64,000 bases of DNA from positions 1 to 64,000 of IMG/VR virus record IMGVR_UViG_3300037517_003820; one strand, written 5' to 3'. The stretch's first letter is position 1. Each line of letters begins with the position of its first letter. The translations under genes were made by a program, and so were the position numbers. Source of the stretch: a virus. The notes beneath the pieces were generated by a model, which saw only the letters and a program-made list of their open reading frames with translations, had not been told where the DNA came from and ran no database searches. Shown here piece after piece: positions 1-29,085 of the stretch.

Positions 1-2
1 CT

Positions 3-149
3 TGTAAAATGTATGAGGATCTAAAACTTGATTATGAAATAGGTAATACTAGCTTACTACGGGGTATTCTTAGTCCGTTTGTTGGTAATAATTTTGATCC
101 GAGTTATTTACGATATCCTGGTGATCATGCTAGAGACCTTTATAGTTAA
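3..149 (+). CDS. C-terminal end of a truncated unidentified phage protein
   Basis: An open frame enters from the left edge and ends at TAA 147-149, giving the last 48 residues of a protein that ends in HARDLYS. The stretch is too short to identify a family. It lies 12 bases upstream of the next start, on the same strand as the whole virion gene block, so it is probably another structural gene of that operon (inference). No start codon can be assigned because the beginning is outside the window. Confidence 0.6.
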   Translation, partial: CKMYEDLKLDYEIGNTSLLRGILSPFVGNNFDPSYLRYPGDHARDLYS

Positions 150-161
150 TGGAATAATTCT

Positions 162-1160
162 ATGGTAGCTGTTAATTATAATTTTCCAATAGAAAAAGGA
201 TCTGATTTTCAGATTAATTTTGTATATAATAACAGTTCCGGCGACCCGATAAATCTTAGTAATAAGTGTGTCGAATTTGGCATACTAGGCGACGACGGAT
301 CTATTAGAAAATATTCTAGTCAAGCATTAGCTAATTATGATGTTGATGGATGGAGCATAACAGGAGATAATCTCGGAACTATAGTAATAAAATTTAGTGC
401 GGATCATACAAAATCTTTTAATTTTTTAACAGCGGTTTATGATCTTGATGTTAAAAATGTCGGAACCATTAAACTTAATAATGTTAGATTGTCTCAAGGA
501 AGTATCAATCTAATAGATAGAAATTTAACTATTGATCCTAATTGTGCAATTAGTTTGGATCCTTTGGTTGTACAAACAACCAATTTACCAACAACCACAG
601 GCAGCAATATACCAACACCAACACCAACTGTTACAGAACAAACAGATTTTTGTTTACCATATGATTGTGGTCCACTAGATCTATTTTCTGTAGTTTATAA
701 TGGCAGTGGTTTAACTATTAATGATTTGTCTACAACAAGCGGTTCTGTTAATGTTACGAATACAGGAATCATATCTAATATAGAACTGGCTATTAACAAA
801 CTAAATCACTCCAACGTAACAGACTTGGTTTTGTTGTTGTCTCCACCAAGCGGAGATAAAATACTACTATCTGCTAATCACAAAATACCGAATTATTCCA
901 ATAATTTTAGTTTTATGTTTAGTAACAAAGCTGATAGTAATAAATATTTACATAATATATCTAATGGTCAAACTTGTAGAATTTATGATAAAACATCCAT
1001 TGTTAACTATAATAATGAATCTCTAAATAGTAATTTTGATCATTTATTTAATAGTTCTGTAACCGGTGTATGGAATCTTATTATAAAAGATACTGATCCA
1101 ACTAGTAGTGGAAATATTGATTCTTGGAAACTAGTTATAACATATGATAGTAATATTTAA
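162..1160 (+). CDS. Virion adhesin-like protein with C-terminal P-type (proprotein convertase) domain
   Basis: 332 residues. The first ~120 residues look like the beta-rich domain ([11 protein letters not shown] ... DPINLSN) seen in many phage head/baseplate accessory proteins. A short Pro/Thr linker ([10 protein letters not shown], near residue 150) leads to a C-terminal beta domain of about 150 residues. That domain has the hallmarks of the P/Homo-B domain of subtilisin-like convertases: the pair [18 protein letters not shown] and [12 protein letters not shown] with a final SWKLVITY. P domains normally follow a protease; no protease is present here, so a binding role is more likely (inference). 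The gene precedes neck-type genes, which suggests a head or neck decoration. The start ATG at 162 follows GGAATAA; no signal peptide is visible. Confidence 0.75.
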
Positions 1161-3475: not shown

Positions 3476-4116
3476 AATTTTCCTTGGATCTAATTGATAA
3501 AAATATAGATATTACTAAAGTTATTCTTGAAAATTTAAAAGATCAAATTTCTAAACACATACAAAAAATTTTGCCTAAAATTACTCTGGAAATTAAAAAT
3601 TTGGTTAAAGAAGCTCTTATCGGTGAACCAGAATATGCTTCATTAAAAGCTGGTACATTACGAGCAGAGCTTGGTATAAGCGACCCAGAATCTGTTGATA
3701 AAGTTATAGAAGCAATGGTTAATACTATTCAGATAAAAGAAAACCCTATTAAAACTACTGGTAATGGTTTATCTGGTGGTTTTATTTTTACAATGATTAA
3801 AAGTGATGATATTAATGGAATTATATATACAGATATTGCTAGTGTAGTAGATAGAAAAGGAGACTATTCTTTACCGTGGCTAGAATGGTTATTATTAAAA
3901 GGAAACGAGTCTTTAGTACAAAATTATAGTGTAAACTATAGTAGTAGTTCTAGATCTCGTAGTGGATTAGCGATCATGATTAAGTCCGATTCTAGTTGGA
4001 GAGTACCATCAAATTTTAGTGGCACACCAGAAAATAACTGGACAACAAGAGCAATCAGCAAAATAGAAAAAGCTATAGGTCAAATTATTCAATCTAATTT
4101 AGAAAATAGTTTATGA
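3472..4116 (+). CDS. Putative neck/tail-completion protein
   Basis: About 214 residues. The frame also has an ATG at 3460, but ATG 3472 forms the ATGA overlap with the preceding stop (3473-3475) that several gene pairs here use, with GGAAAAAG upstream, so 3472 is preferred. The N-terminal half is helical and Lys-rich. The middle contains GEPEYASLKAGTLRAELG, and the C-terminal half is beta-rich with a Ser/Arg run (SSSSRSRSG) before a final helix. The layout resembles HK97-gp10-type tail-completion proteins, which are basic and sit just before the tail tube, but no family could be confirmed by eye. Confidence 0.5.
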   Translation: MKFSLDLIDKNIDITKVILENLKDQISKHIQKILPKITLEIKNLVKEALIGEPEYASLKAGTLRAELGISDPESVDKVIEAMVNTIQIKENPIKTTGNGLSGGFIFTMIKSDDINGIIYTDIASVVDRKGDYSLPWLEWLLLKGNESLVQNYSVNYSSSSRSRSGLAIMIKSDSSWRVPSNFSGTPENNWTTRAISKIEKAIGQIIQSNLENSL

Positions 4117-14700: not shown

Positions 14701-17700
14701 TATCAGTTGGTGGATTAATTAGCAAACTTAAAGGCGGAGGATCAGTTCCTGCTCTAGTCAGTAACGGAGAGGCTTTTGTGCCACCCAAACTTGCTAAACA
14801 AATTGGCTATGGAAAATTAGAACGTATGAATCAAGCTGATAAAAATGGTATGACAGAGTTCAGTGAAGGAGGTATTAGCGTATTTAAGGGCCCCGGAAAC
14901 GGAACCAGTGATAGTATACCAACAAATCTGCCTGTAGGTAGTTTTGTTATAAGAGAAAAGGCAACTAAAGCATTAGGTTTAAATAGTGGTGGTGCTGTTG
15001 GAGTAAGAAAATTCAAAGATGGTGACAAGGTTTCTTATAGAAAACATGCAACTGGTATTCAGGCGCCAGTGCCCGATCTTGGATTTCTAAAGACAAGCGC
15101 AATATTATTAGCAGACAGTTTTAGAACCACAGAACAAATCATAAGTAATGGTTATTCGGCCTGGCAAGAGATAGACAAAGTGGCTCCGGTTTTAGCAAAC
15201 GCTTTAGATAGATATTTTAGTACTATCAATGGAACAGTAGAAGATGCTAGTTTGATGATGCAAAGCTATCGTGCAGTAGCCGTGTCTTTGGCTAAACAAG
15301 GAAAAAGCGCGGCAGAAATTGATGCTATTATGACGAATTATATTGATGCTTTAAATAAAGGAATAGACGCATACCAAAATTCTGCTCCTATAGAGCCGCC
15401 AAAATCAGCCACAACATATGCGGTTACTCCACCGAGTCCTCAAATCCCGCCCGATCCCGACGACACTTCAACAACCCCCAAAACTTCTTTACCAAGAACG
15501 CCGCCTCCCGTACCAAAATCTGCCGAGCAAAAACTAGCAGCAGCAGAAAACGAAGCAATTGCTCAAAGAATAGAAACTAAACAAAATATTAAATCCGAAT
15601 ACGATCCAGTATATAGAGGAGCATCGTCTAAAGAAGATAAACAGGCTATTCAGGATGACGCCAGATCAAAATTTCAGGCTGCTGATGCTACCATACAGGC
15701 TAATAAAGCTGCTCAACAACAAGCAATATTACAAGAATTATTAGCACAAAAAGCTAAAGAAGCTAATCAGTCTACAGCAGAATATATATCCGGACTACAA
15801 CAAGAAATTGATGCTAGATCAGTTGATATTATGGAACAAGATTTTAGCAATGCTTTAGGGCCAGAAGCTCCGTCAGCACCAGAAGCAAGACAACAAGCAC
15901 TTAATGAAACAATTAGTTCCAGAGGACTACAAGCATTTAATGTTCCGGGCTTAGGAGAAGGTACTGATTTAAATAGTATTATTGCACAAGTATCAAAAAA
16001 CAATGATCTTGCCGCCGAGGCAGACAAAGCCAAAGCAGCAGCTGCTACAAGAGCGGCTGACGCATTAGAACTCATGAGACTCAAAGCAGAACAAAACGGA
16101 CAAACACTATCACAGTATCAAAGTAATCTTAAACAAAATATTTTGAATCTTGCTAAAGATCTACAAAAATCAGCTCCTGGTAAAATTAGTAAGTTTAATG
16201 AAACTGCTGTTAGTTTACGAGGAGATATTAACAGTGGAGATGAAGATAAAATTACTAAAGCTAAAGAACAATTAGCTAAACAATTAGCTGATCTTGGAAC
16301 AAATCTTGAATCGTCTCAAATAACAACTATAATTGATGATTTAGCAGCAAGTATGGGGGATACCGATAAAACATTTGTTGATATTATTAATAATTCGCAA
16401 GAATTACAAGAAGCATTCAAACAATCATCAACAGATGCAACAGCTTTACAATCAGCAACCCAAAAACTTAGCGTTAGTTTGGGTATTCCTGAGGAAGCTT
16501 TGCAAAAACTAGCAAGTTCTGCCGAATTAGCAGCAAGTAATCTTTACGACAAGAACGTAGCAGCTGCTCAAAAAATGGCGTCTACATTGGCTAAAACTAG
16601 TTTAGCTATTGGTGGAATAGGATCTGTCATATCGTCTACTATCAAATCATTAGGAGGGTCGGAAAATAAAGATACTGCTGTTCTTAGTACTGGTATAAGT
16701 AGCGTAGCTAGTACCGTCAGTACATTAGGAGCTTCTCTAAGTCAATTACCAGGAGGTATAAAATTTGTTTTAGATACTATGCAAGGAATGGGAGGCGGTA
16801 TAGGTAAAGTAGCCACTAGTTTAGCTCCTAAGATAATGGGTTTTATAGCAAGTCCTATGGCTTTAGTCGGAGCATCGTTAGCGGGTGGGGCAGTTGCCAT
16901 AGCAGCTGGTTTTAAAGAAGCATATAATGCTGCTAGAGAGTTTGATTTACAAACAAGTCAAAAAAGAGTAGACGAAAGTTTAAGTAGAGTAAGCGACCTA
17001 TTTGCACAATTTGAAAAAGATACTACTAATATAGATTTTCTTAGTAAAATTGATAGTGAATTAAGTTACGGATCCAAACAGTTGATGAAAAATCTTGAAA
17101 CTGATTTAAAAGTTCCAAAAGCAATGTGGGCTAATCTATTAGATCTTGATGGTGGTTCGCAGGCTGCTGGTAGAAGTATGATATTGGAAAAAGAAGGTAT
17201 TGGAAGCTATATCTCATCTGTATTTTCTAATAATGCTCAACAAGCGGCAATAGGCAGAATTGCACCAGAAAAGGCCGTTGAAACAGCTCAAAAGGTTCAG
17301 CCACAAGGCCAAAATATATTAAAACAGTTCGAAAATAAACTTCGGTCCGGTATGGACATGGATACTATTCTTGCTGAATTAAATGCTGCTGGTAATCAAT
17401 CAGCTGAAGTTCTTGCTAGAATGAATCCGAAAATCAATGAACAAATTATGTTGATAGAGAATGATAGAAACATATCAGAACAACGCAAAAGCGCTATTAT
17501 CAAAGAAATAACAACATCCGAAGCTAACAGAGTTGCTAGTGTTAATATGAAAAATAGTATGAAACAAATTGAGTTTGAGAAACTAGGTAGACAAACCAAT
17601 AATTTTGCAACAAGTTTGGAAAGAATGTTTAATGGGATGGAACAGGCCATAAATAAAACAGACTTTGAATTAAGTAAACTTTCTCGTTCAGCAGAATTAT

Positions 17701-20700
17701 CAGCAGCAGCTTTAAGCGGAAATGCTAAGGCTGGAGATGTTATGCTCGACAGTATTAATGTGTTACAAAATCCAAGAGCATATTCAGGACAAGAGCAAGG
17801 AGCAGCTTTTGATCAAGCAGCAGGATTTTTTGGATCTCAAGCTGATCTTGTTAGGCCACTATTGGGACTTGGAGATAAGTTAGAAAGTACGGTAATGAGT
17901 ACTATCAATCGTTCTGTTCAGGCTAATCCAACAGGTAGCACAGAAGGAATAGCGTCAAATATTAGAAATGCTCTAGATGCTCAATTAAAAGATTTAGGAT
18001 TACCTCCTAATATAGCAGATAAGTTAGCAGGACAAACTAAATTAGCTTTTGAAAAGATAAGAAGCGAAAGAGGCGGAGAAGATACAAGATTAAACTTTGA
18101 TCAGATAACAGAAGAAGTTCCCGCTTTTGCAAAAGCTATTAGCTCAGCACAAAGAGCACAAGAATTAGCTGTTAAAGCTATGGAATTTTATCAAAAGAAT
18201 CTTAATGAGTATGCTCAAGCTATGAATCAAATGGTTGATTTTCAGATAGAAGCTAATAATAGGATGAGAAAAGCTAGCGAGGTTCAAGCTAAAGGAGCTA
18301 TGGAACTAGCTAAAACATTAGGGCAAACAGTATCTTTAACAGAAACAAGAAATGTAACAGAAGCGCCAATAAGATCTATGACAGGAGGATTAACAAATCC
18401 TGGTGATATTGGTAGAAACGTTGTGAATTTAGAAGCTCAAAGACGAACATTACAAACAGCTGCTGATAATGCTGGCAATAGAGGTCCGGCCGCAAAAGAC
18501 GAATTCGCCGTTATGCAAAATCGACTAAGAAACACTAACGTGGCTCTTAGAGAAAATATTGATGCATTAAAACAAATGGCGGACAGTACCGATTTAGCAC
18601 AAGCAGCTTTAGCTAAAATTCAAGAGGTACAAGCTAGAAGACAAGCCGGAGCTAATCTTATAGAAAAAATGGTAACTTCTAATCCGGAAGAATTAGCCAG
18701 ATTAAATGCTTCAATAGGACGATTAAATAATAATATGAGAGGCGGATTAAATGTTGGTAGCACAGCAGAACAAAGAGGTGAAAGTTTACAGGCTTTTAAT
18801 ATGCTTGCTCCACTATTAGGAGATGGACAGCAACAAAATGAATTAAAAGCTAATGTGTTAGAAAGTATGCTTAAAGAAAGCGGTGTTGGTATAGATAGTA
18901 CTTTTCAATCAGTTTTGGATAGTTTAAGAAATCCCGAAGGGGATCCTCAAATGGCAGAAGCTATTAGTGTTTATAGAGAAAGTTTGGCTAAACAAACACA
19001 AGCTAATGATATATTAGGTGAACTACAAAGGATGATGAGCGAGAATACCGCAGAAATAGCAGCAACAAAACTAGCAACAGCAATTAGTAGTGTTCCTTTA
19101 ACTTTCGATCAACAAGTATTTAATGATATAAGAGACAATATACAAAAATTGGTCGAGATCGTAGGTAAAAGAGACGAAGAAGGAAAAGACCCTATTCCTG
19201 CTCAAAACAAACGCAAAGGAGGCGTAATATACGCATCAATGGGCAGAGCTATTGATTTTGCTCCAAAAGGAACTGATACTGTTCCTGCAATGTTGACTCC
19301 CGGAGAGTTTGTGGTTAATCGAGCAGCAACAAAAGCTAATCTTCCATTATTACAAAATATTAATAGTAAAAAATATAGTAATGGTGGAAAAGTAAGATAC
19401 TACAATGAGGGAGGATATGTTTTAGCTGGAGGAGTAGCAACCGCCGGAACCGGAAAAGATGACGATGCGCCTAAATTACAAGAAGCCGTTAGCCAATCAA
19501 CAGAAAAACAAAAAACAGCTAAAAATGCAGAACAGGCTACTAAATTAAAACTACCTATTTTAGAACAATATGGTGATAAAGACTTTAAAAAATTAGGAAC
19601 AATTCAAACAGATAATTTTATTGCTGTTGGAAATAGAGGCAAGTCCGGCATTGGTGAATCTTTTGAAAGAATATATCTTGGAGAAAAAATTGGTACATTA
19701 TATAATAATTATGGTTCAATCACTGGAACTAAAAAAGCTGAATTACCAAAATATCAAAAAAGTTTATTTTGGGGAATACAAGATATTGATAGTATTATCG
19801 GATCAGAAAAACAATTAACCAAATCTGACATATATAAAAATGGAAAAGATGGTGAGTTTACAGACCTGATCTTGGGCTATCAATCATTATATACTAAACT
19901 TATGGAAGGACCATCCGGAAATACCAAAATAGAAACATTTATTAAAGAGATCAATACGGAGCCATTGCCAAATATTTCTCCTAATTTTTCAAGAAAACCA
20001 AAAAGACGTACTCGTCGCGACGGAGACTATAAGGGATACTCCTATCTAAAGGTAGTTGAAGATCTTATACAAGACAATGAGAAATCCTATTGGGGTATAT
20101 TTGATGAAATACCACGTATCCTTAAACAAGGAGGTGTTGGCTTTGAGGGAGTGTCGCCATTTACATTAGCGGATTCACCAGCAAAGTTTGCAGCGTATGT
20201 AAATACTCCTCCTCGAGTATTAGCTGGTAAAGATTTACAACAAGATAATTTAGACTCTCATAATAAAGTTGATTTAGTCAATAATACGATACAAGTTATA
20301 CAAAAAACTCGACAGGCTCTTAAGGCTCTTAGTCTTTTTGATGATAAGATACTAGATCCTGGAGAAGGAGCCGGTGAGAAAGTTGATACTTCTACCGTAG
20401 AGTCCGATGCCTCTATTTATAACAAAGAAACACTAGCCTCATTAGATGCTTTGTATAAGAATAGAATATTTCATACGTCTATCGGCGATCCGGATTTTGT
20501 TAAGAAGCCAATAACATTATATAATATGGCAGAAGAAAAATGGAATACCATTCAATCAGATCCGAATTATCAGAAAGCAGTAGAAGATAACACAGCCATG
20601 TCCAATTGGAATGATACAATAAGTATTATCCCTATAGTCAATAATCAACCAAACACTGACAACAAACGTCAATTTCCATGGATTACAAATGATACAAAAT

Positions 20701-22943
20701 TAGATGTGAGTAATTTAAAATTAGCACAAAAAGAATTTAACACAGAAGCTGGAGATGCTTTATTTAAGGTAACAGAAACACCCATTGGATCTGCTGGTGG
20801 TCGATTTTTTATTCCAGCAAAAACTATAACAGGTAACCTATTAAATACAACATCGCGAAACTATGGTAGCCCTTATGAATATACTTATATTCCACCAAAA
20901 GCTGGAGATCCAAAATTAAATCCATTATACAATACAGAGAAGCCGATACTGTATGCTGGAACAAGTCTTAATGAATATTTAGGTGCTAGATTACCATCAT
21001 GGAATACTGATACAGGAGAGATGCCTCCAGTTAATGAAGAATTTGGATCTTTATCAAGCTTAAAATTGAATGGACAATATATAGGAGGTATCAGCAGTGT
21101 TGATCCAAGCGAATTTAGAGTAATTAAAGATTTACCAGAAGATATTAAACCATATATTATACCGTCTAGTGATGGCACGAATCCTATTTTAGAAAGTATG
21201 ACTATTGATGCTACAGAATACCAAAAAGCAAGAGACGAAAGAATAAAAGCTAAAGAAATGGAGTTGACTAAAGAAAGAGCCTCAAAAGTCACAGGAGATA
21301 GATTCAAAAAATTATCAACAGCAGAAAGCGCATTTACAACAGCAACAAGAACAAAATTAGCACAAGAAATACAGAGAATTGCATCTACTACATTGAGCGC
21401 CTACGGAATCGGAGTTCCTAGTATAACAAAGATAGAAGACGTTGGAGGTGTTGCTGGATATTTAAATAATTATCTCAAAAAAATAGATAATAAATCTCCT
21501 CAATGGGCAGAAATTAACGCTTGGAGAGCACTATTTAGCGAATTATATCAACCAGGAGGTATAGGTAAAGATGCAGAAAGCAGAATACCGGCTACTGTGG
21601 CATATTTGAAAACTTTTGGTGTTGATGTTGAAAAGGGAACAGTTGATGCAGATGGAATTAAACAAATTATAGCAAGAGAAAAGGCTATAGCTATTAGTAA
21701 AAATGCCAGTGGAGAAATACCAGAAGATTCATTAAAAAGTTTAGATCTGGAAGCATCAAAAACAAAGCTGTATACTGTTGATAAAGATGGTAATAAAACA
21801 GAAATAAAATCTGATAATATAAAAAATCCTAAAACTATTCAGGATGTTGAACGTATAGGATTAGCTCCAGAAAATTTATTTGAAAATAGCGAAAAACGAC
21901 AGAGCTATCTTAAGGTTTTATCCGATTATTTTACTAAAAATAATTTATCAGAATTTGCAGCAGCAGCAGAGGGTCTTAAACCATGGTACACGGCGCAAGA
22001 CACTTTATTAAATGCTGGATTAAATAATGATATGTTACAAGGCAGTTTAGATGCTCTCAATGGTAATGCCCCCAAACCAAATACTACAGCTGGTGGTGAT
22101 AGGAATTTAGAAGATCCTGTTACAACTATTGGGAATAAAGATAATTATATTCAGCATCATAAGTTATTAACCGCAGATAAATATGGCGAATTACCAGACA
22201 CTAACAGAATGAAAGATTTAATAACAGTTAGAATACAAGAGTCTAAAACAGAAGAACAAAAACCAGAAAACCAACAAGCTCTTGCTCGTGGAGGTATAGT
22301 ATACGCTAGCAATGGGAGCTTTATTAATTTTAGACCAAAAGGAACAGATACTGTTCCGGCCATGCTAACTCCTGGTGAATTTGTTATTAACAGAGCTTCG
22401 ACTCAAAAATACAGACCAGTCCTTGAAGCTATTAATAATGGGAATTATAGCAGAGGAGGTATTGTAAACTATCTTAGCGGTGGTGGCTATTTGCCACTAT
22501 ACAGAGAAGGCGGAGGAGGAACACCGGCCGGATCCGGTTTCGATTTTACCTCTTTTATGAACAATATTATGGTATCTGTTTCTAGTAGTATAACAGAAGC
22601 TTTCAATAAAGCTGTTTCGGCACTAAAACAACCAAACAATAGCTCTGGTGGTGTATCTAACAGTGGCGGTGATATTTCTAGTATTGATAATTTTGTTAAT
22701 AGATTAAATAATATCGCCAATATACTTAGTAATATTTATATACCTCCACAAATTACTATCACAGGAAAACACGATGTTGTTGTTACTATCAACGGAGACA
22801 CAGTTTTGAATCAATTACGACCAGACATGGCAGGAATAGCCATATCTGCTATAAGATCCGCTTTCCAAGATCTAAAAGCTAAAAATCCAGAAAATAATAC
22901 TATCAACTTTGATATAGATATTAACCCTAATGATATTGCATAG
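8703..22943 (+). CDS. Giant tail tape-measure protein (4746 aa) with embedded enzyme-like segments
   Basis: Residues ~125-510 match the TP901-type tape-measure core (ALAVRRFAAFSAVTGVF, TRLSINLGVSSDSLVQVSS, AFAVESSDIIAAIQRTGGVF, ESAETIATGLRTIFTRIQ). Five VPAL/PGE-type modules lie near residues 762, 2015, 2072, 3527 and 4551. Between the first and second are a HAD-like segment (DFDET at 1339-1343) and HELTH at 1823-1827. A hydrophobic segment near 2710-2735 could be the membrane-inserting part. Other parts are helical coiled coils and a Pro-rich linker near 2240. At roughly 1.5 angstrom per residue, the known tape-measure rule, an all-helical protein would give a tail near 700 nm; folded insertions would shorten it. 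The protein is close in size to the ~5000-residue tape measure of phage P74-26. AGGA precedes ATG 8703. Confidence 0.93.
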   Translation: MAQAFNLTAQLNLRGPSNVRQIVSDVKKQLGTITGDIKFNIDPASINNTSRLSKSLQELNANLANVSTNARAASSAIKSFGQSVTSISGSSNKLSSNLDKTTKSADNVGSSLTKTAKNVSVARTEMEEFGRQSALAVRRFAAFSAVTGVFFSLNRAINNGLKSFIEFDKELVKLQQVTGKNAEGLQDLQNEITRLSINLGVSSDSLVQVSSTLAQAGLSATETRAALEALARSSLAPSFDDINQTVEGSIALMRQFGISAKELEKALGSVNSVAAAFAVESSDIIAAIQRTGGVFANASKGVSEGTDALNEFIAVFTSVRATTRESAETIATGLRTIFTRIQRQGTIDALRDFGVTLTDAEGKFVGAYKAVQLLSEGLNRIDPRDIKFSQIVEELGGFRQIGKVIPLIQQFATAQEALKVAQAGQGSLAADALKAQLSLANQIAKVREEFLSLIRSLGQSDTFQTLARGALGFASGLIKITSALKGVLPALAILGAGASLRGITQFAGGFIGGLKKVPKGQEGEEQPGIARSIGSNLGSSLVGAKTEQTSRDIEKNTEALNGISDKLTSLTTTIQSLIDLSSKEKEQVIDPSLVTNLISSISTLNDTINNQKLTSTDSGQDPTQRKIQAQQIRNIRTDKTLNSTEKKIRIQQIQNEKNKSSGIDTTAIQELSAGINTFNTNFNAISNSLSTYNTTLQNNTNTLSSNNSSLENVYAALVNLDATLDRKDFGGGGGPTTASGGGRILGFSKGGSVPGNGRGDKVPALLEPGEVVMSNRAVNKYGRGNLVRMNRYAKGDQVRKIVPQNNTLNKSHIGSDIQISKKNLQNYARNYRSKEFFASAYDNAGVTKQQLESGDFDFNNLIKKMQLRIKDRVILNLPSNWNQALRANNPNLVSQNDLANFIATSEDSLFVGQYGRLPKNDKKDTRQQLVTAIKSLPTKQYTNKNNPPPSEFPSISSFDIDSELDSLKRIITQDNLEESSYIDLLFKPSKFGSSYVSGATGLQRTRTQSRSGAYKELLNSGGLIKKFAGGGEALQSKLSTIRTLLGEFYGSDEQLISKSISNSMIIDEARADKIIANLESSRSQLPLFKKLFSEKSSSVGVLNGFPVARYDAIGGLQSMRFDELKDEETIREFIKRGKLATQASRGPVGKRMVYGDQKAARRRFAVGGTVENIAAKEKKSIETVILEQLSSFGDASGVKKILGLGAGEREISSILNASNIRAGKNIEKAIKFINRALAKTGKTDAAREAKEAAMRKVAIAGLFPLDYNKDFSDWKLEDGREIYGYVRGFQSSFLPQIEAMQEANRATRQKFAEDIQDTAALGGLGNRNIQGPIQPLAIDFDETLALGTKMLDENGKEDLPAYSDRKKVMESLAQARPTSLAKRLASIEQKNPGYVRMYSRILTARPQSTADIIASTLNRFGLPYLEQDVTGVSQGLGTNIAKAKAANVAAAEKLIDDSEENIRATMAAGKSTFRYGEVPELKGPAEEKFGQSNIEGGMLEAALSQLLGYNINVDALQRNRAIDFPQGLGRGAQLFGLPPNIETEVKRTLDGDSFSKAREEFSRYFTENPQAYAKGGAATIGSGSFKFPKRISNAYVREMEKLLEQEQMEKVFSTYPGNERMIVDEEAVQKGYESPFSRELFINSFKDKISRNTVFERMGQFARVIGLPPTDFLSAIPTQLDFGVNYPATALFNKDPSGPGTRGLQGVDLTPYGYTEQDKQDLFGYTKLIEEKKKQILKTIKTSVTTYEDGSFGYDVALTEKLRAELEDLQKQQRSLIDKNNVAIKAAKESRLQSANQSGRGSVGIATNPFNTSQRQDYSILYHELTHQLFNSLRTKNAQSFEAYKAKVASLFSGNNDDVADAFDALVGNTGYNSADVAYGRSYKLSGLSSLMIGSAKKESFEKYVNSDPEYVPELRKTWAETQSTTNAKAFKPLNPRVNDILLRGKISQDVIDKYEDNGKEEFLTTLVQKLPLLDENLSGILDSTLDDLLGGAGISRQKLSVGGLISKLKGGGSVPALVSNGEAFVPPKLAKQIGYGKLERMNQADKNGMTEFSEGGISVFKGPGNGTSDSIPTNLPVGSFVIREKATKALGLNSGGAVGVRKFKDGDKVSYRKHATGIQAPVPDLGFLKTSAILLADSFRTTEQIISNGYSAWQEIDKVAPVLANALDRYFSTINGTVEDASLMMQSYRAVAVSLAKQGKSAAEIDAIMTNYIDALNKGIDAYQNSAPIEPPKSATTYAVTPPSPQIPPDPDDTSTTPKTSLPRTPPPVPKSAEQKLAAAENEAIAQRIETKQNIKSEYDPVYRGASSKEDKQAIQDDARSKFQAADATIQANKAAQQQAILQELLAQKAKEANQSTAEYISGLQQEIDARSVDIMEQDFSNALGPEAPSAPEARQQALNETISSRGLQAFNVPGLGEGTDLNSIIAQVSKNNDLAAEADKAKAAAATRAADALELMRLKAEQNGQTLSQYQSNLKQNILNLAKDLQKSAPGKISKFNETAVSLRGDINSGDEDKITKAKEQLAKQLADLGTNLESSQITTIIDDLAASMGDTDKTFVDIINNSQELQEAFKQSSTDATALQSATQKLSVSLGIPEEALQKLASSAELAASNLYDKNVAAAQKMASTLAKTSLAIGGIGSVISSTIKSLGGSENKDTAVLSTGISSVASTVSTLGASLSQLPGGIKFVLDTMQGMGGGIGKVATSLAPKIMGFIASPMALVGASLAGGAVAIAAGFKEAYNAAREFDLQTSQKRVDESLSRVSDLFAQFEKDTTNIDFLSKIDSELSYGSKQLMKNLETDLKVPKAMWANLLDLDGGSQAAGRSMILEKEGIGSYISSVFSNNAQQAAIGRIAPEKAVETAQKVQPQGQNILKQFENKLRSGMDMDTILAELNAAGNQSAEVLARMNPKINEQIMLIENDRNISEQRKSAIIKEITTSEANRVASVNMKNSMKQIEFEKLGRQTNNFATSLERMFNGMEQAINKTDFELSKLSRSAELSAAALSGNAKAGDVMLDSINVLQNPRAYSGQEQGAAFDQAAGFFGSQADLVRPLLGLGDKLESTVMSTINRSVQANPTGSTEGIASNIRNALDAQLKDLGLPPNIADKLAGQTKLAFEKIRSERGGEDTRLNFDQITEEVPAFAKAISSAQRAQELAVKAMEFYQKNLNEYAQAMNQMVDFQIEANNRMRKASEVQAKGAMELAKTLGQTVSLTETRNVTEAPIRSMTGGLTNPGDIGRNVVNLEAQRRTLQTAADNAGNRGPAAKDEFAVMQNRLRNTNVALRENIDALKQMADSTDLAQAALAKIQEVQARRQAGANLIEKMVTSNPEELARLNASIGRLNNNMRGGLNVGSTAEQRGESLQAFNMLAPLLGDGQQQNELKANVLESMLKESGVGIDSTFQSVLDSLRNPEGDPQMAEAISVYRESLAKQTQANDILGELQRMMSENTAEIAATKLATAISSVPLTFDQQVFNDIRDNIQKLVEIVGKRDEEGKDPIPAQNKRKGGVIYASMGRAIDFAPKGTDTVPAMLTPGEFVVNRAATKANLPLLQNINSKKYSNGGKVRYYNEGGYVLAGGVATAGTGKDDDAPKLQEAVSQSTEKQKTAKNAEQATKLKLPILEQYGDKDFKKLGTIQTDNFIAVGNRGKSGIGESFERIYLGEKIGTLYNNYGSITGTKKAELPKYQKSLFWGIQDIDSIIGSEKQLTKSDIYKNGKDGEFTDLILGYQSLYTKLMEGPSGNTKIETFIKEINTEPLPNISPNFSRKPKRRTRRDGDYKGYSYLKVVEDLIQDNEKSYWGIFDEIPRILKQGGVGFEGVSPFTLADSPAKFAAYVNTPPRVLAGKDLQQDNLDSHNKVDLVNNTIQVIQKTRQALKALSLFDDKILDPGEGAGEKVDTSTVESDASIYNKETLASLDALYKNRIFHTSIGDPDFVKKPITLYNMAEEKWNTIQSDPNYQKAVEDNTAMSNWNDTISIIPIVNNQPNTDNKRQFPWITNDTKLDVSNLKLAQKEFNTEAGDALFKVTETPIGSAGGRFFIPAKTITGNLLNTTSRNYGSPYEYTYIPPKAGDPKLNPLYNTEKPILYAGTSLNEYLGARLPSWNTDTGEMPPVNEEFGSLSSLKLNGQYIGGISSVDPSEFRVIKDLPEDIKPYIIPSSDGTNPILESMTIDATEYQKARDERIKAKEMELTKERASKVTGDRFKKLSTAESAFTTATRTKLAQEIQRIASTTLSAYGIGVPSITKIEDVGGVAGYLNNYLKKIDNKSPQWAEINAWRALFSELYQPGGIGKDAESRIPATVAYLKTFGVDVEKGTVDADGIKQIIAREKAIAISKNASGEIPEDSLKSLDLEASKTKLYTVDKDGNKTEIKSDNIKNPKTIQDVERIGLAPENLFENSEKRQSYLKVLSDYFTKNNLSEFAAAAEGLKPWYTAQDTLLNAGLNNDMLQGSLDALNGNAPKPNTTAGGDRNLEDPVTTIGNKDNYIQHHKLLTADKYGELPDTNRMKDLITVRIQESKTEEQKPENQQALARGGIVYASNGSFINFRPKGTDTVPAMLTPGEFVINRASTQKYRPVLEAINNGNYSRGGIVNYLSGGGYLPLYREGGGGTPAGSGFDFTSFMNNIMVSVSSSITEAFNKAVSALKQPNNSSGGVSNSGGDISSIDNFVNRLNNIANILSNIYIPPQITITGKHDVVVTINGDTVLNQLRPDMAGIAISAIRSAFQDLKAKNPENNTINFDIDINPNDIA
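12700..13160 (+). other. HAD-phosphatase-like segment inside the tape measure
   Basis: Coding for residues ~1334-1486 of the tape measure. The order of motifs matches HAD hydrolases: motif I DFDET at 1339-1343 (nucleophile-type Asp1339 and Asp1341), motif II Thr at 1403 in ILTARPQ, a Lys-containing stretch around 1440, and motif IV KLIDDSEEN with Asp1456-Asp1457. The acidic residues needed for catalysis appear present, so activity is possible. Phage HAD proteins of this type are usually free-standing nucleotide or polynucleotide phosphatases; presence inside a tape measure is unusual. The assignment is by motif only. Confidence 0.6.
14080..14640 (+). other. Zincin-like (HExxH) segment inside the tape measure
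   Basis: Coding for residues ~1793-1979. HELTH at 1823-1827 follows the hydrophobic strand YSILY, as in zinc metallopeptidases. Candidate third ligands are Glu residues in EYVPEL and KEEFLTTLV downstream. If active, it could process the tape measure, other virion proteins or host proteins on entry. HExxH occurs by chance, so the preceding strand, the downstream acidic helices and the position next to the HAD segment are the supporting points. Confidence 0.5.
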
Positions 22944-22949
22944 GCTAAT

Positions 22950-25900
22950 ATGAATAAAATTACTAAAATATTTAATAACATAGGATTTCTTTGTTCTGTT
23001 AGTAATAACACTTTTATTCAGCATAATGCTATTAATGGCTATAAAGCATTAGAACAAGATACTATTGGATATTTTATTCCATACTTAATTCGTAATATTA
23101 AAGATGGATACAAATGGGAAACCGGAGTTGGCGAAATACAGTATAGTGATGGTTTATTAGTAGTTAAAAGAATAGAGGTTACAAATTCATCAAATAATAA
23201 CAAACCAGTTAATTTTATTGGTAATGAAAATGAGTTTTATCTTTTTGTAAATAATAATAATTTTAATAGTAGTTTTAATAATGTTATTGTTAAGAACGAT
23301 CATTTTACTATCGATAATGTAACAAGCATTTATTTGGTAGATAACAATGATAAAAATATTGATTGTGTATTACCAGACCCTAAAAAAGCTAGAAATATTG
23401 TTATAGATATCAAAGCACTGTCTTCTGCTCACAACATAATAATTAGAGATTGTGATGGTTTAATTTTTGAGTCAACAAGCACATCAACCAGGCTGGTTTG
23501 CGATGGACAAGCATGGTACTCTCTTAATCAAAATGATCAATTAAATTTTGCTTCGTTATCAGATGACTCTTTTTCGTCGTTAAGTAATCCTGGTGGAGCA
23601 GCATATTCTTTTCAATATAATGATGGATCCAATGGCTTATTAGGCTCAGAATTGTATTGGAGTTCTGGAAATACTAATAAATTATTATTAGGATCAAGCT
23701 CAGAATCTTTGGCCCATACTGTTATACCAACATCCGGTTCAGCAAACACAATATTTAATCAAGATTTGCAACCGAGTGATTTTATAGTTTATGGCAGTGG
23801 ACAACCGTATCGAAATCTTTTCTTTAGTTATGATGGTAGGGTTGGTATAAATATTCCATCAGGATCCAGACCACAAACTATTTTTCATGTTGTAAATTAT
23901 AGTTGCAGTGAAATATTAAGACTGGAAAATAGAACAACTTGTCAACCAGCAAAATTAACAGTTTATCACAAACCATCATCACTTAGTAATGGTGGAGTAT
24001 GTTCTATATTAAACTTAGCTGGAAGAGATGTTAATAATAATCAAAAAGATTATGCAACCATATATAGTATAGCATCTGACACTACCAACGGTAATGGTGG
24101 GTTGGTATTGACTGTTAGTTCTGGTTCGAGTCAACAGCCACTAGTGTCCGGAAGCTTAGATAGTATTAATCTTGGTTATAGTAACAATAAAAGAATAAAT
24201 ATTAATAATAATGGTAATATAAATATTTCTGGTGATAATATTGATATTAGATCATCTACTCTAAGTACTATTGGAACATCTAATACATATATAACGCTTA
24301 ATAATACCAATAGAAGCATATCTTTAGACTATAATTCACTACTTTTGGGTACGGGATCCATCACCAGTAACGGCACTTTATCTGCTAATAATATTAGTTC
24401 TAATACCATAACACTACCCAATATAGCAACTAGTAGTTTGTTGACCATATCTAATAATAAGACTATTGTTCCGATTAATGGTATAACAGTTAATAGTGGA
24501 AATAATGGCTTAATCTTCAATAATATATCTGGCAATAAATTTTTAACCACAGACAGTACCAACAATCTTGTTGGATTATATGATTTAGATGATTATTTTC
24601 TAACAGAAAAAGATATAACCTGGAACAAATATACTCCAAAAATAGCTAGTGTGTGTTTAAAACAAGTTATTTTATCTGAGGATACTCCAATAGAAGAATT
24701 TAGTGTTGGAGATCAGGTAGAAATTATTACTAGTAATAGTTCTATATATAGGAATATAACATCCTTAGTAACCAACGAAGCTTTCATAACAGAAATAATT
24801 TTAGATCAAAATGTTTCTACCAATGAAATTAATAATATTACTATTGCTTCAGTAACAAAGGGTGGCTATTTAACAATTCAAAAATTTTCTTCTGAATCTT
24901 CATCGGATAGCACATCGAATATTCTTAGCGTAAGACCAAAAACGGAGACAGTCTTTAATACTGCTCAAAAAGATATTGATTTTACAGTTTATGGTGCTGA
25001 TATTAGACCAGCACTAAAAGTACATGCTAGTGTAGGATCTATCACAACGGTTTCTGGAACATATTATAATTTTGCCACTAAAGACGATAATATAAAACCT
25101 ATTGTAATAAATACTGTTGGTAGCGGTTTAACTAATAATTTTAGCACAGCTAATTATAACTATAGCTTAACTAATAATTTATTTAGTGGTATACTATCTT
25201 CTGTTGGTACTAATGGTAAGAGTAGTTATTATGGAACATATGATCAAAATGGTAATGTTGCAGAGTGGATAGAGTCCGATATTACGGATGGTATAGTAAC
25301 ATTAGAATATGCTGCTGGCGGATCCTACAGAACACCTGTTACTGGCAGCGTATCTCCGGATGCTGATTCTATCTATTTAAGAGGAATACAGCAATTTCCG
25401 ATTATTTCCGGATACGATTACGTTGGTTTTAGAGTAGCTAGCATTAGTAATCTAGTTGATAATGCCAATATATCAAATAGTTCAAGTTTAAATTTAAGTT
25501 TTGTAAATATTATTAATGAGAATAATATAGCAGATACAAAGGATCTGTACTTACAATTTTCTAACAATACTTATCAAAATATTATTATTCCAAATCTTGG
25601 TGTTGTGGATAAAAATTATCGTATAGGCAGATACGAGGTTACTAATAAGCAATATGTTCAATTCTTAAATAGTGTAGCAACCACTGTTGGAGATCCTGTT
25701 ACTACCGGATTATATAATCCAAATATGACAAATGCTCAAAATGGGGGTATACTAAGATCTACTAATGGTTTAGTATTTGAATATTCAATAAAACCAAATA
25801 TGGAAGATAAACCTGTTAATTATGTTAATTATATTAATAGCTTGCAATTTATTAATTGGTTACATAATGACGCTCCGGAAGAAGTTAGTTCAAATGATGC

Positions 25901-26519
25901 AAATAGTATTATTAATGATGGTGCATATACAATACTATTAGCTGGTAGTACTTATTATATAACAGCTAATAATAATAGAAAGTATTTCTTACCCAGCTTT
26001 AACCAATGGCATAAAGCTGCGTATTTCGAATACCAGGAATCAATCTTTGTTAGTGGTTCACCAGCTATTACAATGGGTACTTTTGAGCCGTATGTTGTAG
26101 CAACAGAATTGTTATCTGAAAACAGTACCGATCCACCAAAACAAGTTTTAGCTAATTTAACTGTTAGTGGTTGGTTGGTGGTTGATAAGATTTTTGTAAG
26201 AGACGGCACCGTTAGATCCTCATTGAAAGATATTGGATTCGTACCAGATCTTACCGCCGACACTATAGAACAACAAGCGGCTGGCGTAATACCTCCGTTA
26301 AGCACAGATGTCGGAGGTATCAATAGCGATACATTCTGGAATAATAATACTTCATCGAGTTGGGGTGGTGGAGGTGGTATATATGGCGAAACTAATCCGC
26401 CTCCCATTGTTAATGCGGATGGAACAGAAAACGAAGCAGATTGTGAAGATGAAAATTTAATTGCTACAAATAATATTCCGCATTGGTGTCGAGACGATGG
26501 TAGACCCGGTTTATTCTAA
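22950..26519 (+). CDS. Tail fibre/distal tail protein with a circularly permuted FGE-like domain
   Basis: 1189 residues. The N-terminal ~170 residues end in a strand-rich domain (ARNIVIDIKALSSAHNIII ... LVCDGQAWYSL) typical of phage appendage proteins. Residues ~220-620 are beta-rich and Gly/Ser/Asn-rich fibre. Residues ~625-700 (ITIASVTKGGYLTIQ, SVRPKTETVFNTAQKDIDF) are shared with the next gene. Residues ~720-1060 form an FGE/SUMF1-like domain with swapped halves: NVAEW 769-773, GGSYR 790-794 and GFRVAS 826-831 come before YEVTN 895-899, PVNYVNY 955-961 and FLPSFNQW 1013-1020. No Cys is present around GGSYR, so a catalytic FGE is unlikely and ligand binding is inferred. The start is six bases after the tape-measure stop; the ribosome-binding site is weak. 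Confidence 0.8.
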   Translation: MNKITKIFNNIGFLCSVSNNTFIQHNAINGYKALEQDTIGYFIPYLIRNIKDGYKWETGVGEIQYSDGLLVVKRIEVTNSSNNNKPVNFIGNENEFYLFVNNNNFNSSFNNVIVKNDHFTIDNVTSIYLVDNNDKNIDCVLPDPKKARNIVIDIKALSSAHNIIIRDCDGLIFESTSTSTRLVCDGQAWYSLNQNDQLNFASLSDDSFSSLSNPGGAAYSFQYNDGSNGLLGSELYWSSGNTNKLLLGSSSESLAHTVIPTSGSANTIFNQDLQPSDFIVYGSGQPYRNLFFSYDGRVGINIPSGSRPQTIFHVVNYSCSEILRLENRTTCQPAKLTVYHKPSSLSNGGVCSILNLAGRDVNNNQKDYATIYSIASDTTNGNGGLVLTVSSGSSQQPLVSGSLDSINLGYSNNKRININNNGNINISGDNIDIRSSTLSTIGTSNTYITLNNTNRSISLDYNSLLLGTGSITSNGTLSANNISSNTITLPNIATSSLLTISNNKTIVPINGITVNSGNNGLIFNNISGNKFLTTDSTNNLVGLYDLDDYFLTEKDITWNKYTPKIASVCLKQVILSEDTPIEEFSVGDQVEIITSNSSIYRNITSLVTNEAFITEIILDQNVSTNEINNITIASVTKGGYLTIQKFSSESSSDSTSNILSVRPKTETVFNTAQKDIDFTVYGADIRPALKVHASVGSITTVSGTYYNFATKDDNIKPIVINTVGSGLTNNFSTANYNYSLTNNLFSGILSSVGTNGKSSYYGTYDQNGNVAEWIESDITDGIVTLEYAAGGSYRTPVTGSVSPDADSIYLRGIQQFPIISGYDYVGFRVASISNLVDNANISNSSSLNLSFVNIINENNIADTKDLYLQFSNNTYQNIIIPNLGVVDKNYRIGRYEVTNKQYVQFLNSVATTVGDPVTTGLYNPNMTNAQNGGILRSTNGLVFEYSIKPNMEDKPVNYVNYINSLQFINWLHNDAPEEVSSNDANSIINDGAYTILLAGSTYYITANNNRKYFLPSFNQWHKAAYFEYQESIFVSGSPAITMGTFEPYVVATELLSENSTDPPKQVLANLTVSGWLVVDKIFVRDGTVRSSLKDIGFVPDLTADTIEQQAAGVIPPLSTDVGGINSDTFWNNNTSSSWGGGGGIYGETNPPPIVNADGTENEADCEDENLIATNNIPHWCRDDGRPGLF
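25098..26070 (+). other. Permuted FGE-sulfatase/C-type-lectin-fold domain
   Basis: The standard bacterial FGE-like order is YRIGxYEVTN - PVNYV(S/N)W - FLPSxxxW - (S)ANY - YGTYDxxGNVxEW - GGS(W/Y) - YVGFRVA. Here the second half, from FSTANYNYS and YGTYDQNGNVAEW (25230-25268) to YVGFRVAS (25419-25442), precedes the first half, from YRIGRYEVTNKQYVQFL (~25620-25670) to FLPSFNQWHKAAYF (25986-26030). The break lies in the usual loop between KAAY and ANY. The joining linker contains NENNIADTK and VVDKNYRIG, which resemble the usual region just before the first motif. This is a true permutation of motif order, visible in one uninterrupted frame. Confidence 0.8.
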
Positions 26520-26532
26520 GTGAGGAGTTTAT

Positions 26533-29085
26533 ATGTTATGGTATAATATTCTTAGTCCCAGAAACTGGTCTGGAGTAAGATTACAAACAGGAAATAAAAA
26601 AGTAGATGGAGTATATTATAATCTATTAAGTAGTAAAGATGTTAGTCTAGCTGCTAGTGGAACAATGTACTTAGTAGCAAATAGTGGAATTAGATTAATA
26701 AGTCCATCTTTTGTTGATGTTAGCGGACTAAGAAGTATAAATCTTAGTTCTGTAGAATATTCCAAAATAGATAATTTAGGTAATCCTTTGCCTTTCTATC
26801 CGGGTGTGACTGGCGGTATAGCTGTAAAAATTGACGATGATAATATTTTGGCAACAGATATCATAACATATGATAGTGGAAATAATATTTTAAAATTCCC
26901 ATCCGCTAATCCTGGCGGTCCTTTATATGTTGTTCCGCCACATTATGAAGCCGGAGAAATAGTTGATTTGGCAAATCTTTCTTCATTTGATGGGCTTATA
27001 CTAAAACCAGAAGAAACAGACGCTTCTGAACCGCCAGTCATAACACCAGCAACCATAACAGCAAATACTATTATTTATGCTAATTCTGGAATAAATCTTG
27101 GACCAAATAATAATTTGGATTCTTATAGAGGATTCATACTCACACATGCTGGCTCAGGAGAACCAGCCGAATGGAAACCGGCAGTTTATCTAAGAGAAAA
27201 TTATAGTGTCGATGCACCACTAGAAGGATTAGAAAGAATAGGTATAAACTGGATTAGATATCCTAAAAGACCGGCTTTAATAAGAAATGGTCGGCTATAT
27301 ATTTATAAGACAAACAGATCATGGTCGCCGTATCCGGCGATAGGATCTGATACAGAAATTCTTGCGAATGAATTGGGTACCGGTTCAGACACTTTATGTG
27401 TTGAAACTGCTATAGGAGATATTATTGTAGGATATACCAAATTTGCTTTCGTAGCGAAAGCTTCTAGCCAAGAAAAGATCGAAGCAGAATTTAATTTTGA
27501 GGAAAGTTTAAAAACCGTAAGCATTATCGATCCAAATGGTCCTGCTAACGAAGGCGCGGTACCAGCCTATGAAATAGAGATAGCTCCCGAAGAACCAGAA
27601 GGAATAGGCTCAGGGGCGATAGGAGCAAATGTGCTACTATTTTCTGTTACAAAAGGCGGTTATTTTCCTATGCAATTGGAACCAAATGCTACAGATAATA
27701 TAACATATACTAACAACCAAAATGAAGAAATAGATGCTATTGGTACAATAGAAACACAAGACGATGGAACTCTGTTAGAAACACCTATTACTATTCCATT
27801 AAGATTTAAACCTTCTACAATTAATAATCTTAGTATAAGACCAAGTATCCATACTGCTTTTAATATGCTAGGAGAGGATATAGATTTTGTTATTTATGGA
27901 AAAGAAAATACAAACTTTAATAACTATAATAGTATCTTTGATCTTAATGATAATTTTCTACCACAAGGACTAACACCTGTTTTCCGTGTGGACGCTAGTG
28001 TTCCTAATAGCGTTAGTGGATCACCGAGTGGCGTAATATATAGTAAGTTTATAGATAGAGCCAAAACACATCCGATAGGCTGGGGTTTTGATCGCGCCGG
28101 TAAGGTTTGTATAAAAACTAATGATCCGTATAAAATGGGATCAATACCAAGTGGTAATGGAGAATTGATAGCTTATGCCGATGTGACGATTAGTGGTCAT
28201 ACATATAGTAAAAGTATTATTACAGAGGATATATTTCTTAGACCAAAACCAGCTGTAGATAATAAAGGGAAATATATAAGAAATGCTTTATTAACAGTAA
28301 ATTCGGAAGGTCAGATAGTATCAAGAACTCCAAGAGTTAATCCTATTATACCAGACGCTCCGTCCGGCGTGGCCGGAATAGCTAATGGTTATGGTGGAGT
28401 TGGAAATAATGAGCACTCTATTCGCTGGGACGCGCCAGTTAGTGATGGTAGATCAGCAATACTTAATTATCTAATACAACTATCTCATAATAATGGAGAA
28501 AACTGGATAGATGTACCTAACGAAACAATCGGTGTTCTTAGGGGTTTTAATACTCAAACATCGGCTACAATAACACAGGTTGCTGCCCCAGCTATTTTTA
28601 GAGTAGCTGCACAAAATGGAGTTGGTATTGGTCCTTATTCTGAGGCTACCGATATCACTTTTGTGAGCAACACGGGTCTTCCTCAGAGTCCAACAAATTT
28701 TACTGTTACTAGAAAAATAGATACTCTTACAATATCTGATGTTGATCTATCTTGGACACCGACTAATTCATGGGGATCATATGGTGCTAGTGGATATCTA
28801 ATAGAAGAATCAACAGATGGTGGATCTAGTTGGTTTAATATAGCGTTTATTCCGTACAATGAAGATAGCTCTCATAATGAAACAGGCCTGGATGGTATTA
28901 CAAATTATCTGTATAGAATTAGCGCTATTAACACTAATAATGGTAAAAGTGCGTATAATTATGTATATACTACAGGTGTTTTATTAGAAGATCCAGACTT
29001 AGAAGAAGAAGAGAATAAGAAAAATGATGAATTGACTAATTTTGATTTTGGTGTTATATTATTTACTGGAATATGTGCTGTTTAG
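26533..29085 (+). CDS. Tail fibre/baseplate-associated protein with two FN3-like domains
   Basis: 850 residues with a strong ribosome-binding site (GAGGAG). The N-terminal and central parts are beta-rich. The segment VLLFSVTKGGYFPMQ ... NLSIRPSIHTAFN ... EDIDFVIYG ... VFRVDASV (residues ~365-500) parallels the upstream gene, showing paralogy. In place of the FGE domain, this copy continues directly to YADVTISGHTYSKSIITEDI, which parallels LANLTVSGWLVVDKIFV of the other. Residues ~606-710 and ~715-820 are two fibronectin type III-like domains (APSGVAGIANG ... FRVAAQNGVGIGPYSEA; LPQSPTNFTV ... YLYRISAINTNNG). The C-terminus ends in a hydrophobic stretch. Such Ig-like domains on phage tails usually help weak surface binding. 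Confidence 0.7.
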   Translation: MLWYNILSPRNWSGVRLQTGNKKVDGVYYNLLSSKDVSLAASGTMYLVANSGIRLISPSFVDVSGLRSINLSSVEYSKIDNLGNPLPFYPGVTGGIAVKIDDDNILATDIITYDSGNNILKFPSANPGGPLYVVPPHYEAGEIVDLANLSSFDGLILKPEETDASEPPVITPATITANTIIYANSGINLGPNNNLDSYRGFILTHAGSGEPAEWKPAVYLRENYSVDAPLEGLERIGINWIRYPKRPALIRNGRLYIYKTNRSWSPYPAIGSDTEILANELGTGSDTLCVETAIGDIIVGYTKFAFVAKASSQEKIEAEFNFEESLKTVSIIDPNGPANEGAVPAYEIEIAPEEPEGIGSGAIGANVLLFSVTKGGYFPMQLEPNATDNITYTNNQNEEIDAIGTIETQDDGTLLETPITIPLRFKPSTINNLSIRPSIHTAFNMLGEDIDFVIYGKENTNFNNYNSIFDLNDNFLPQGLTPVFRVDASVPNSVSGSPSGVIYSKFIDRAKTHPIGWGFDRAGKVCIKTNDPYKMGSIPSGNGELIAYADVTISGHTYSKSIITEDIFLRPKPAVDNKGKYIRNALLTVNSEGQIVSRTPRVNPIIPDAPSGVAGIANGYGGVGNNEHSIRWDAPVSDGRSAILNYLIQLSHNNGENWIDVPNETIGVLRGFNTQTSATITQVAAPAIFRVAAQNGVGIGPYSEATDITFVSNTGLPQSPTNFTVTRKIDTLTISDVDLSWTPTNSWGSYGASGYLIEESTDGGSSWFNIAFIPYNEDSSHNETGLDGITNYLYRISAINTNNGKSAYNYVYTTGVLLEDPDLEEEENKKNDELTNFDFGVILFTGICAV

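Follow-up and report, generated by a model that had tools for sequence, protein, structure and literature searches.

The window analysed here, a stretch of 64,000 nucleotides forming positions 1 to 64,000 of the IMG/VR virus record IMGVR_UViG_3300037517_003820, contains on its plus strand an uninterrupted open reading frame (ORF) for a protein of 1189 amino acids, one domain of which is predicted to be of the FGE type of the C-type lectin (CLec) fold and has its two halves in the order opposite to that of the family. An earlier note, made from the letters of this DNA, had pointed to six motifs in a reversed order within one frame, and each of them is indeed present once, at the residues indicated there (YGTYDQNGNVAEW at 761–773, GGSYR at 790–794, GFRVAS at 826–831, YEVTN at 895–899, PVNYVNY at 955–961 and FLPSFNQW at 1013–1020). 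The parts of the gene are listed below; papers cited by their PubMed Central (PMC) number, here and elsewhere, are drawn on in excerpt.

22,950–26,519, plus strand: ORF of 1189 amino acids in an uninterrupted frame, carrying the permuted domain (from the ORF list)
25,143–26,105, plus strand: circularly permuted FGE-type CLec domain, residues 732–1052 (from Pfam, alignment, AlphaFold2 and motif positions)
25,143–25,442, plus strand: canonical C-terminal half (C-half), first in the chain, residues 732–831, with STANY, YGTYDQNGNVAEW, GGSYR and GFRVAS (PF03781 profile positions 156–213)
25,323–25,424, plus strand: GG-to-GFR loop, residues 792–825, fast-evolving by block and codon comparisons; its equivalent is the variable region of FGE-type proteins of diversity-generating retroelements (DGRs; PMC6328139)
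25,443–25,493, plus strand: 17-residue linker between the former C-terminus and the former N-terminus (coordinates from motif mapping)
25,494–26,027, plus strand: canonical N-terminal half (N-half), second in the chain, residues 849–1026, with SFVNII, YEVTN, PVNYVNY and FLPSFNQWHKAAYF (PF03781 profile positions 34–124)
26,028–26,105, plus strand: domain tail to the new C-terminus, residues 1027–1052, aligning with ATQSD..P of relatives and free of cysteine here (from the alignment)

Reversed order against the FGE family profile

The single Pfam family found in the whole protein is FGE-sulfatase (PF03781), with an E-value of 6.7e-9 and a score of 36.2 bits, the cut-off being 23.3. Scanned alone, residues 700–850 match profile positions 156–213 (E 0.0021; 18.2 bits, by itself under the cut-off), and residues 851–1100 match positions 34–124 (E 8.4e-6; 26.1 bits). 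Since profile positions 156–213 precede 34–124 in the protein, its order is reversed relative to the family profile, with the C-half ahead of the N-half, just as the earlier note had read it by comparison with ordinary FGE/SUMF1-like proteins; the protein passes the curated cut-off of the family, yet lacks its colinear succession of N-half and C-half. The same reversal appears when a profile of the permuted family is run against PDB sequences: in human FGE (2aft), query positions 126–206 fall on chain positions 38–138 and query positions 33–96 on 202–283, and TvpA and 5aoh give the same picture. The break had also been placed correctly, between KAAY and ANY, the new N-terminus lying at the (S)ANY strand and the TQSD..P segment being kept at the new C-terminus in most of the relatives listed. 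The reversed order of the motifs is confirmed, and its reading as a circular permutation is supported.

Occurrence of the permuted domain in viruses

An initial search of IMG/VR, in which the window domain served as the query, returned 17 loci that have the same order over most of the domain, down to 37% identity, and seven of these, aligned with the window domain and its two sister copies, keep that order; such a recurrence rules out chance. The sister copies, C-half first and full length, reside outside the window in the same 100,279-base record (94,025–94,906 and 91,949–92,872, minus strand). Homologues with the swapped order, for which the earlier note had suggested a search, are thus plentiful, being found at these 17 loci and in 94 of 104 IMG/VR contigs from wider scans. 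The latter took in the best 80 of 219 and the best 80 of 131 relatives, with ORFs classified by profile hidden Markov models built from each half; as they were ranked with permuted queries and covered the best relatives only, canonical viral copies are under-counted in what follows.

Among the 219 viral ORFs with a match (overlapping loci of the same contigs included), 169 consist of exactly one C-half followed by an N-half, 13 are exactly canonical, and 37 comprise repeats, mixtures or single halves, the N-half occurring alone in five of the 219 ORFs and the C-half in two. Counted by contig (loci L022–L177), an adjacent permuted pair is present in the 94 mentioned above, a canonical pair in 10, both in 3 and neither in 3; in L072 and L154, two of the three contigs with both orders, no more than a fragment of the upstream N-half is present (profile positions 150–174 and 140–174). 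In 87 contigs there is an ORF that contains just a single permuted pair. The 94 permuted contigs carry 71 different metagenome ids, and six of them are 200 kb or longer. With incomplete-half pairs, minus-strand frames and loci L018–L021 set aside, there are 109 distinct permuted domains, and the gap between their C-half and N-half ranges from −25 to 22 residues by profile ends (between −5 and 22 in 108 of them). The permuted profile furthermore matches 28 of 28 virus records (G013 being left out), one to ten times each and sometimes partially. A tblastn search with the window domain and a sister copy gave no match among 50,697 isolate-phage records of INPHARED (records very near the window possibly being excluded), so that no host can be derived from a relative.

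Individual records show further arrangements. A virus record of 151,782 bases (G018) bears ten full-length permuted copies, five of them in one open frame of 3754 amino acids, and in one phage ORF (contig 3300027586_001442, loci L079/L126) a permuted domain is directly followed by a canonical one. A permuted unit is preceded or followed by an N-half fragment (within profile positions 132–174) in L154 (frame at 2578), L072 (frame at 3826) and L157/L158 (frame at 3958); these fragments are possibly remnants of a longer tandem array. Two short viral contigs (L164 and L173) carry canonical FGE-like ORFs with what we take to be a PEP-CTERM-like tail, next to genes that presumably encode phage head proteins.

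Predicted fold

The AlphaFold2 model of window residues 700–1070, built from 95 aligned rows, has a mean predicted local distance difference test score (pLDDT) of 81.0, with stretches below 50 near the ends, and a predicted template modelling score (pTM) of 0.85; for the sister copy (76 rows) the values are 95.0 and 0.92. A single confident domain is thus predicted in both cases, in keeping with the suggestion of the earlier note that a permuted fold is physically plausible. The note had also considered separate half-domains that pair with other copies; the record, which may be a fragment, holds no spare half but three full-length copies only. Each chain would probably close on itself rather than swap halves with a neighbour.

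In the VIA structure comparison, the 15 matches listed for the window model are of FGE type by name and are aligned essentially over the N-half (Z 4.2–6.1), and the 46 listed for the sister copy are all of FGE/EgtB/PorK/DGR type by name (Z 3.2–6.3), where the kinship of some of the names with this kind is our assumption. One half alone is aligned in 38 of the 46 listed matches: the N-half in 23, mostly onto the first part of the chain (1y1e 87..279, 5aoh 2..184), and the C-half in 15, mostly onto the last part (1y1h 252..372, 8vig 333..442). On human FGE, positions 115..300 of the sister model fall on 1y1e 87..279 and positions 18..114 on 1y1h 252..372.

Cysteines near the new ends

A cysteine is found near each new end in 50 of the 109 permuted domains, in two mutually exclusive registers. 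Covariation was tested for each of the ten alignment columns that contain 8 or more cysteines, and the column pair nearest the new ends reached a phi of 0.94 (both cysteines in 33 domains, the N-terminal only in 2, the C-terminal only in 1, neither in 73; n = 109), the next best pair reaching 0.45. In the second register (n = 17) the N-terminal cysteine is located a few residues earlier and the tail cysteine is present in all 17; its tail pattern also matched 16 other rows, in which, judged by eye, it corresponds to the first-register cysteine. The two N-terminal registers never co-occur (35, 17 and 0 domains). The window copy has no cysteine in its domain, which is embedded in a larger protein, and the two sister copies represent one register each. 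The KAAY–ANY loop of 99 canonical bacterial rows contains no cysteine in 91 cases, one in 7 and two in 1. As judged from the sequence covariation, a disulfide staple probably re-closes the opened loop across the break in about half of the copies.

Bacterial relatives and the origin of the permutation

A scan of bacteria with one genome per species and the permuted-first alignment as the query (best 80 of 405 relatives) yielded 100 ORFs with a match, all of them canonical, tandem canonical or comprising one half, and no lone C-half/N-half unit at any of the 80 loci. The nearest relatives found among genome contigs (L178–L257), from Planctomycetota, Verrucomicrobiota and other bacteria, are FGE-like proteins that share the motifs of the phage domain, sometimes in tandem, but differ from it in having the canonical order. 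Likewise, no full-length permuted match at E ≤ 1e-72 was found in 1,563 bacterial genomes (0/392, 0/387, 0/386 and 0/398, with at most six candidates scored per genome), taken from the phyla to which a Lacipirellula, a metagenome-assembled genome (MAG) titled Prosthecobacter, a Cyanobacteria MAG and a Neisseriaceae MAG belong. This cut separates the weakest viral full-length permuted row (4.8e-75) from the best row in five bacterial genomes (1.7e-70), and viral records searched with the same permuted profile served as the positive control.

Ten of the 100 bacterial ORFs are tandem canonical, and in seven of these only −2 to 22 residues separate one copy's C-half from the N-half that follows. 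This is the range of the phage linkers, so that a permuted unit would result if the outer halves were lost. For a phylogenetic analysis, 223 rows were reduced to 141 by 65% identity within class, from which 50 of 74 permuted and 40 of 63 bacterial rows were picked at random, except that window rows were kept first, and were combined with 4 viral canonical rows (94 altogether). In the resulting tree the permuted label changes twice, as against a mean of 31.4 changes for shuffled labels, and the canonical rows, all but the weakly placed bacterial row L179, fall into a starred group of 43. Holding the permuted rows as one clade gave a likelihood better by 37 log units, with a p-value of 0.862 in the approximately unbiased test. 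A single origin of the permuted form is compatible with these results and favoured by them, if not proved. An xNYxxC-like strand pattern was encountered in 22 of the 109 tails, and such a strand at both ends is suggestive of, at most, a footprint of duplication.

The bacterial canonical FGE-like ORF of L179 lies beside an ORF resembling a reverse transcriptase (ORFs near 3562 and 5383), which by its motif we take to be that of a DGR; the locus is thus possibly a bacterial DGR.

Binding loop and function

FGE oxidases have a catalytic cysteine pair after GGS(Y), which we take to be C336/C341 in human FGE (2aft and 2afy have the same numbers in their titles). Two cysteines in the 14 residues after GG were found in none of 95 aligned rows, and one in 8; with the catalytic pair absent, we reject the reading of the domain as an enzyme of the FGE kind. 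The earlier note's proposal of a binder, not an oxidase, thus holds as regards the missing cysteines near GGSYR, whereas the binder role is one that we infer.

The stretch from GG to GFR stands out by its rate of change. In close pairs compared by ten-residue blocks (the upstream linker set aside), 0.70–0.81 of its positions differ, as against 0.09–0.64 in the rest of the domain. At the codon level, 26 pairs, some of them sharing sequences, show 272 amino-acid and 115 silent differences in 761 loop codons versus 857 and 1115 in 5973 codons of the rest; between the sister copy and L064 (the pair L100/L064), the 27 loop codons include 22 with an amino-acid difference and 3 with a silent one. FGE-type DGR proteins are described as having the GG...GFR loop at their very C-terminus, as the variable region that binds the ligand (PMC6328139). 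As the loop is the binding site in such proteins, TvpA and TaqVP among them, and the fastest-changing part here, binding of a host-surface ligand is, by analogy, the most likely function, and the domain would act in adsorption.

The window gene is the first plus-strand ORF after an ORF of 4746 amino acids (8703–22,943) that, judged by its length and position, reads like a tape-measure gene. P/T/S-rich stretches are present beside permuted domains upstream in 31, downstream in 45 and on both sides in 11 of 109 cases. Both this gene place and the P/T/S-rich neighbours would fit a protein of the virion surface, and the product of 22,950–26,519 is presumably a phage fibre. Long P/T-rich stalks of low complexity adjoin permuted domains at a number of viral loci, L018 and L019 among them.

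Proposed history and alternative explanations

We consider it probable that an FGE-type CLec domain was circularly permuted at the gene level via tandem duplication and radiated in large phages as a surface-binding module. An ancestral canonical domain (N-half, C-half) would first have given rise to a tandem pair; once the outer halves were lost, a C-half and an N-half would have remained, joined by the old inter-copy linker, with the new termini in the former KAAY–ANY loop and the old ones bridged by a short linker. A radiation of the permuted form among a group of large phages would have followed, with the domain serving as a surface module in up to ten copies per record. In the window it is part of the protein encoded behind the tape-measure-like ORF, elsewhere of other proteins, some of them beside P/T/S-rich stalks. 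Paired cysteines near the new ends would re-close the opened loop by a disulfide in about half of the copies, and the GG...GFR loop would bind its ligand on the host surface in adsorption. A more specific version, to which we lean with less assurance, holds that the permutation arose once, by tandem duplication in or toward the large-phage lineage, and spread as a multi-copy display scaffold, with disulfides in at least two registers and a binding loop diversifying without a DGR.

Several observations weigh against this history. Three of the ten tandem bacterial ORFs have a longer gap (47 to 453 residues). Eight of the 46 listed structural matches of the sister copy span both halves, which a plain permutation does not predict, and the best PDB Z-scores are modest (6.1 for the window model, 6.3 for the sister copy), a range that may mean only a common arrangement; our own reading is that they are modest because a sequential aligner fits one half only. 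Foldseek, with viral models (BFVD) included, gave no match at E ≤ 0.001. When relatedness is taken into account, the cysteine covariation comes down to 5 independent pairs on supported branches, about 4.7 of them going the same way and none the opposite (p 0.06). Finally, the excess of change in the loop is uneven, with 2 amino-acid and 16 silent differences in the loop of L060/L062.

Fibre proteins are often trimers, and it is conceivable that the C-half and N-half of a chain are each completed by the halves of a neighbouring subunit, whether within a trimeric fibre or along a daisy chain. Very short linkers (−5 to 0 by profile ends) and the presence of several copies within one ORF in some contigs would suit such a domain swap, yet we regard it as unlikely in view of the pTM of 0.92 obtained with a single chain, the 87 contigs with an ORF of exactly one C-half/N-half pair, the open frames that end no more than 62 residues from KAAY in 20 of 109 cases, the domains P/T/S-rich on both sides, and the cysteine pairs, which join the two ends of one unit, although the bond may also run between chains. 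It is far less probable that the two halves are relics of a tandem array whose joint fold has been lost: the tandem canonical ORFs of bacterial relatives and the few one-half viral ORFs could be so explained, but both halves have kept their invariant residues over 95 rows, the joint models are confident and the record contains no spare half.

We give as little credence to the idea that the domain is a DGR target that merely happens to be permuted. Its fast loop is the equivalent of the DGR variable region, TvpA (2y3c) is the top-ranked solved structure in VIA with the window model and in a Foldseek comparison (and third in the VIA list of the sister copy), and the canonical relative L179 is close to the reverse-transcriptase-like ORF mentioned above. 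On the other hand, RVT_1 was detected neither in the record itself (0/1) nor in related records (0/28), which may be fragments, and the changes in 22 of 27 loop codons in L100/L064 would exceed the limited, adenine-site pattern of a DGR. An assembly artefact or a programmed DNA rearrangement mimicking a permutation, for which we found no supporting point, is refuted by recurrence, as 94 contigs, with 71 metagenome ids between them, have the identical order, which in the first scan persists down to 37% identity, and the cysteines covary at the new ends; its probability is negligible.

If permutation by tandem duplication is the correct explanation, it would be a case in which the canonical tandem precursor is still present in bacteria, and the cysteine pairs at the new ends would amount to a test of the permutation built in by nature. 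The domain is likely a receptor-binding module of uncultured large phages, and a permuted CLec scaffold would offer display with different attachment points.

Relation to known systems

Both phage halves match FGE/SUMF1 enzymes (human FGE, 1y1e) by profile and, each alone, by fold, whereas these enzymes have the catalytic cysteine pair and the canonical order, the phage domain lacking the pair and having its halves reversed. TvpA (2y3c) and TaqVP (5vf4) resemble it as FGE-type CLec proteins with variation concentrated in the GG...GFR loop; however, their variable region lies at the very C-terminus (PMC6328139), whereas the phage loop falls within the domain's first third, and they are DGR proteins, whereas the 29 virus records searched here yielded no reverse transcriptase. 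The FGE-type CLec fold is known as a scaffold varied by DGRs in binding proteins of both phages and bacteria (PMC6328139, PMC5006420). Mtd, the receptor-binding protein of a Bordetella phage, is likewise a ligand binder of the FGE subtype of CLec (PMC5006420, PMC6328139), a likeness drawn from its description only; its variable region is C-terminal and DGR-diversified, and it is trimeric via other domains (PMC6328139).

The excerpt of a survey of 224 jumbo phages reports no FGS domains (PMC7824862), the permuted domain in that of PMC8195603 is a transglutaminase-like peptidase, and the words sulfatase, formylglycine, lectin, FGE and permut are all absent from the main text of PMC12619734. By title and start of abstract, no earlier description of a permuted FGE or CLec domain was found among the papers listed from the PMC literature, a scope outside which most subscription papers and bioRxiv preprints fall.

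Neighbouring genes and minor matches

In PHROGs, the N-half of the window domain has a weak match labelled 'kinase' (E 0.00035), and ten other ORFs of the window received no informative name there; NCBIfam gave no match for the window protein. Residues ~614–685 of the 22,950–26,519 ORF are paralogous to residues ~386–458 of the next ORF (26,533–29,085). The idea of an empty site, i.e. that the domain was inserted into a framework common with that next ORF, is not claimed here: the upstream flank scores 86 against a shuffled maximum of 69, the downstream flank 33 against a shuffled mean of 32.2. At L016 and L017 a single ORF (1817 and 1946 amino acids) covers the place of both genes. A further ORF of the neighbourhood (1184–2506) has weak matches in five phages.

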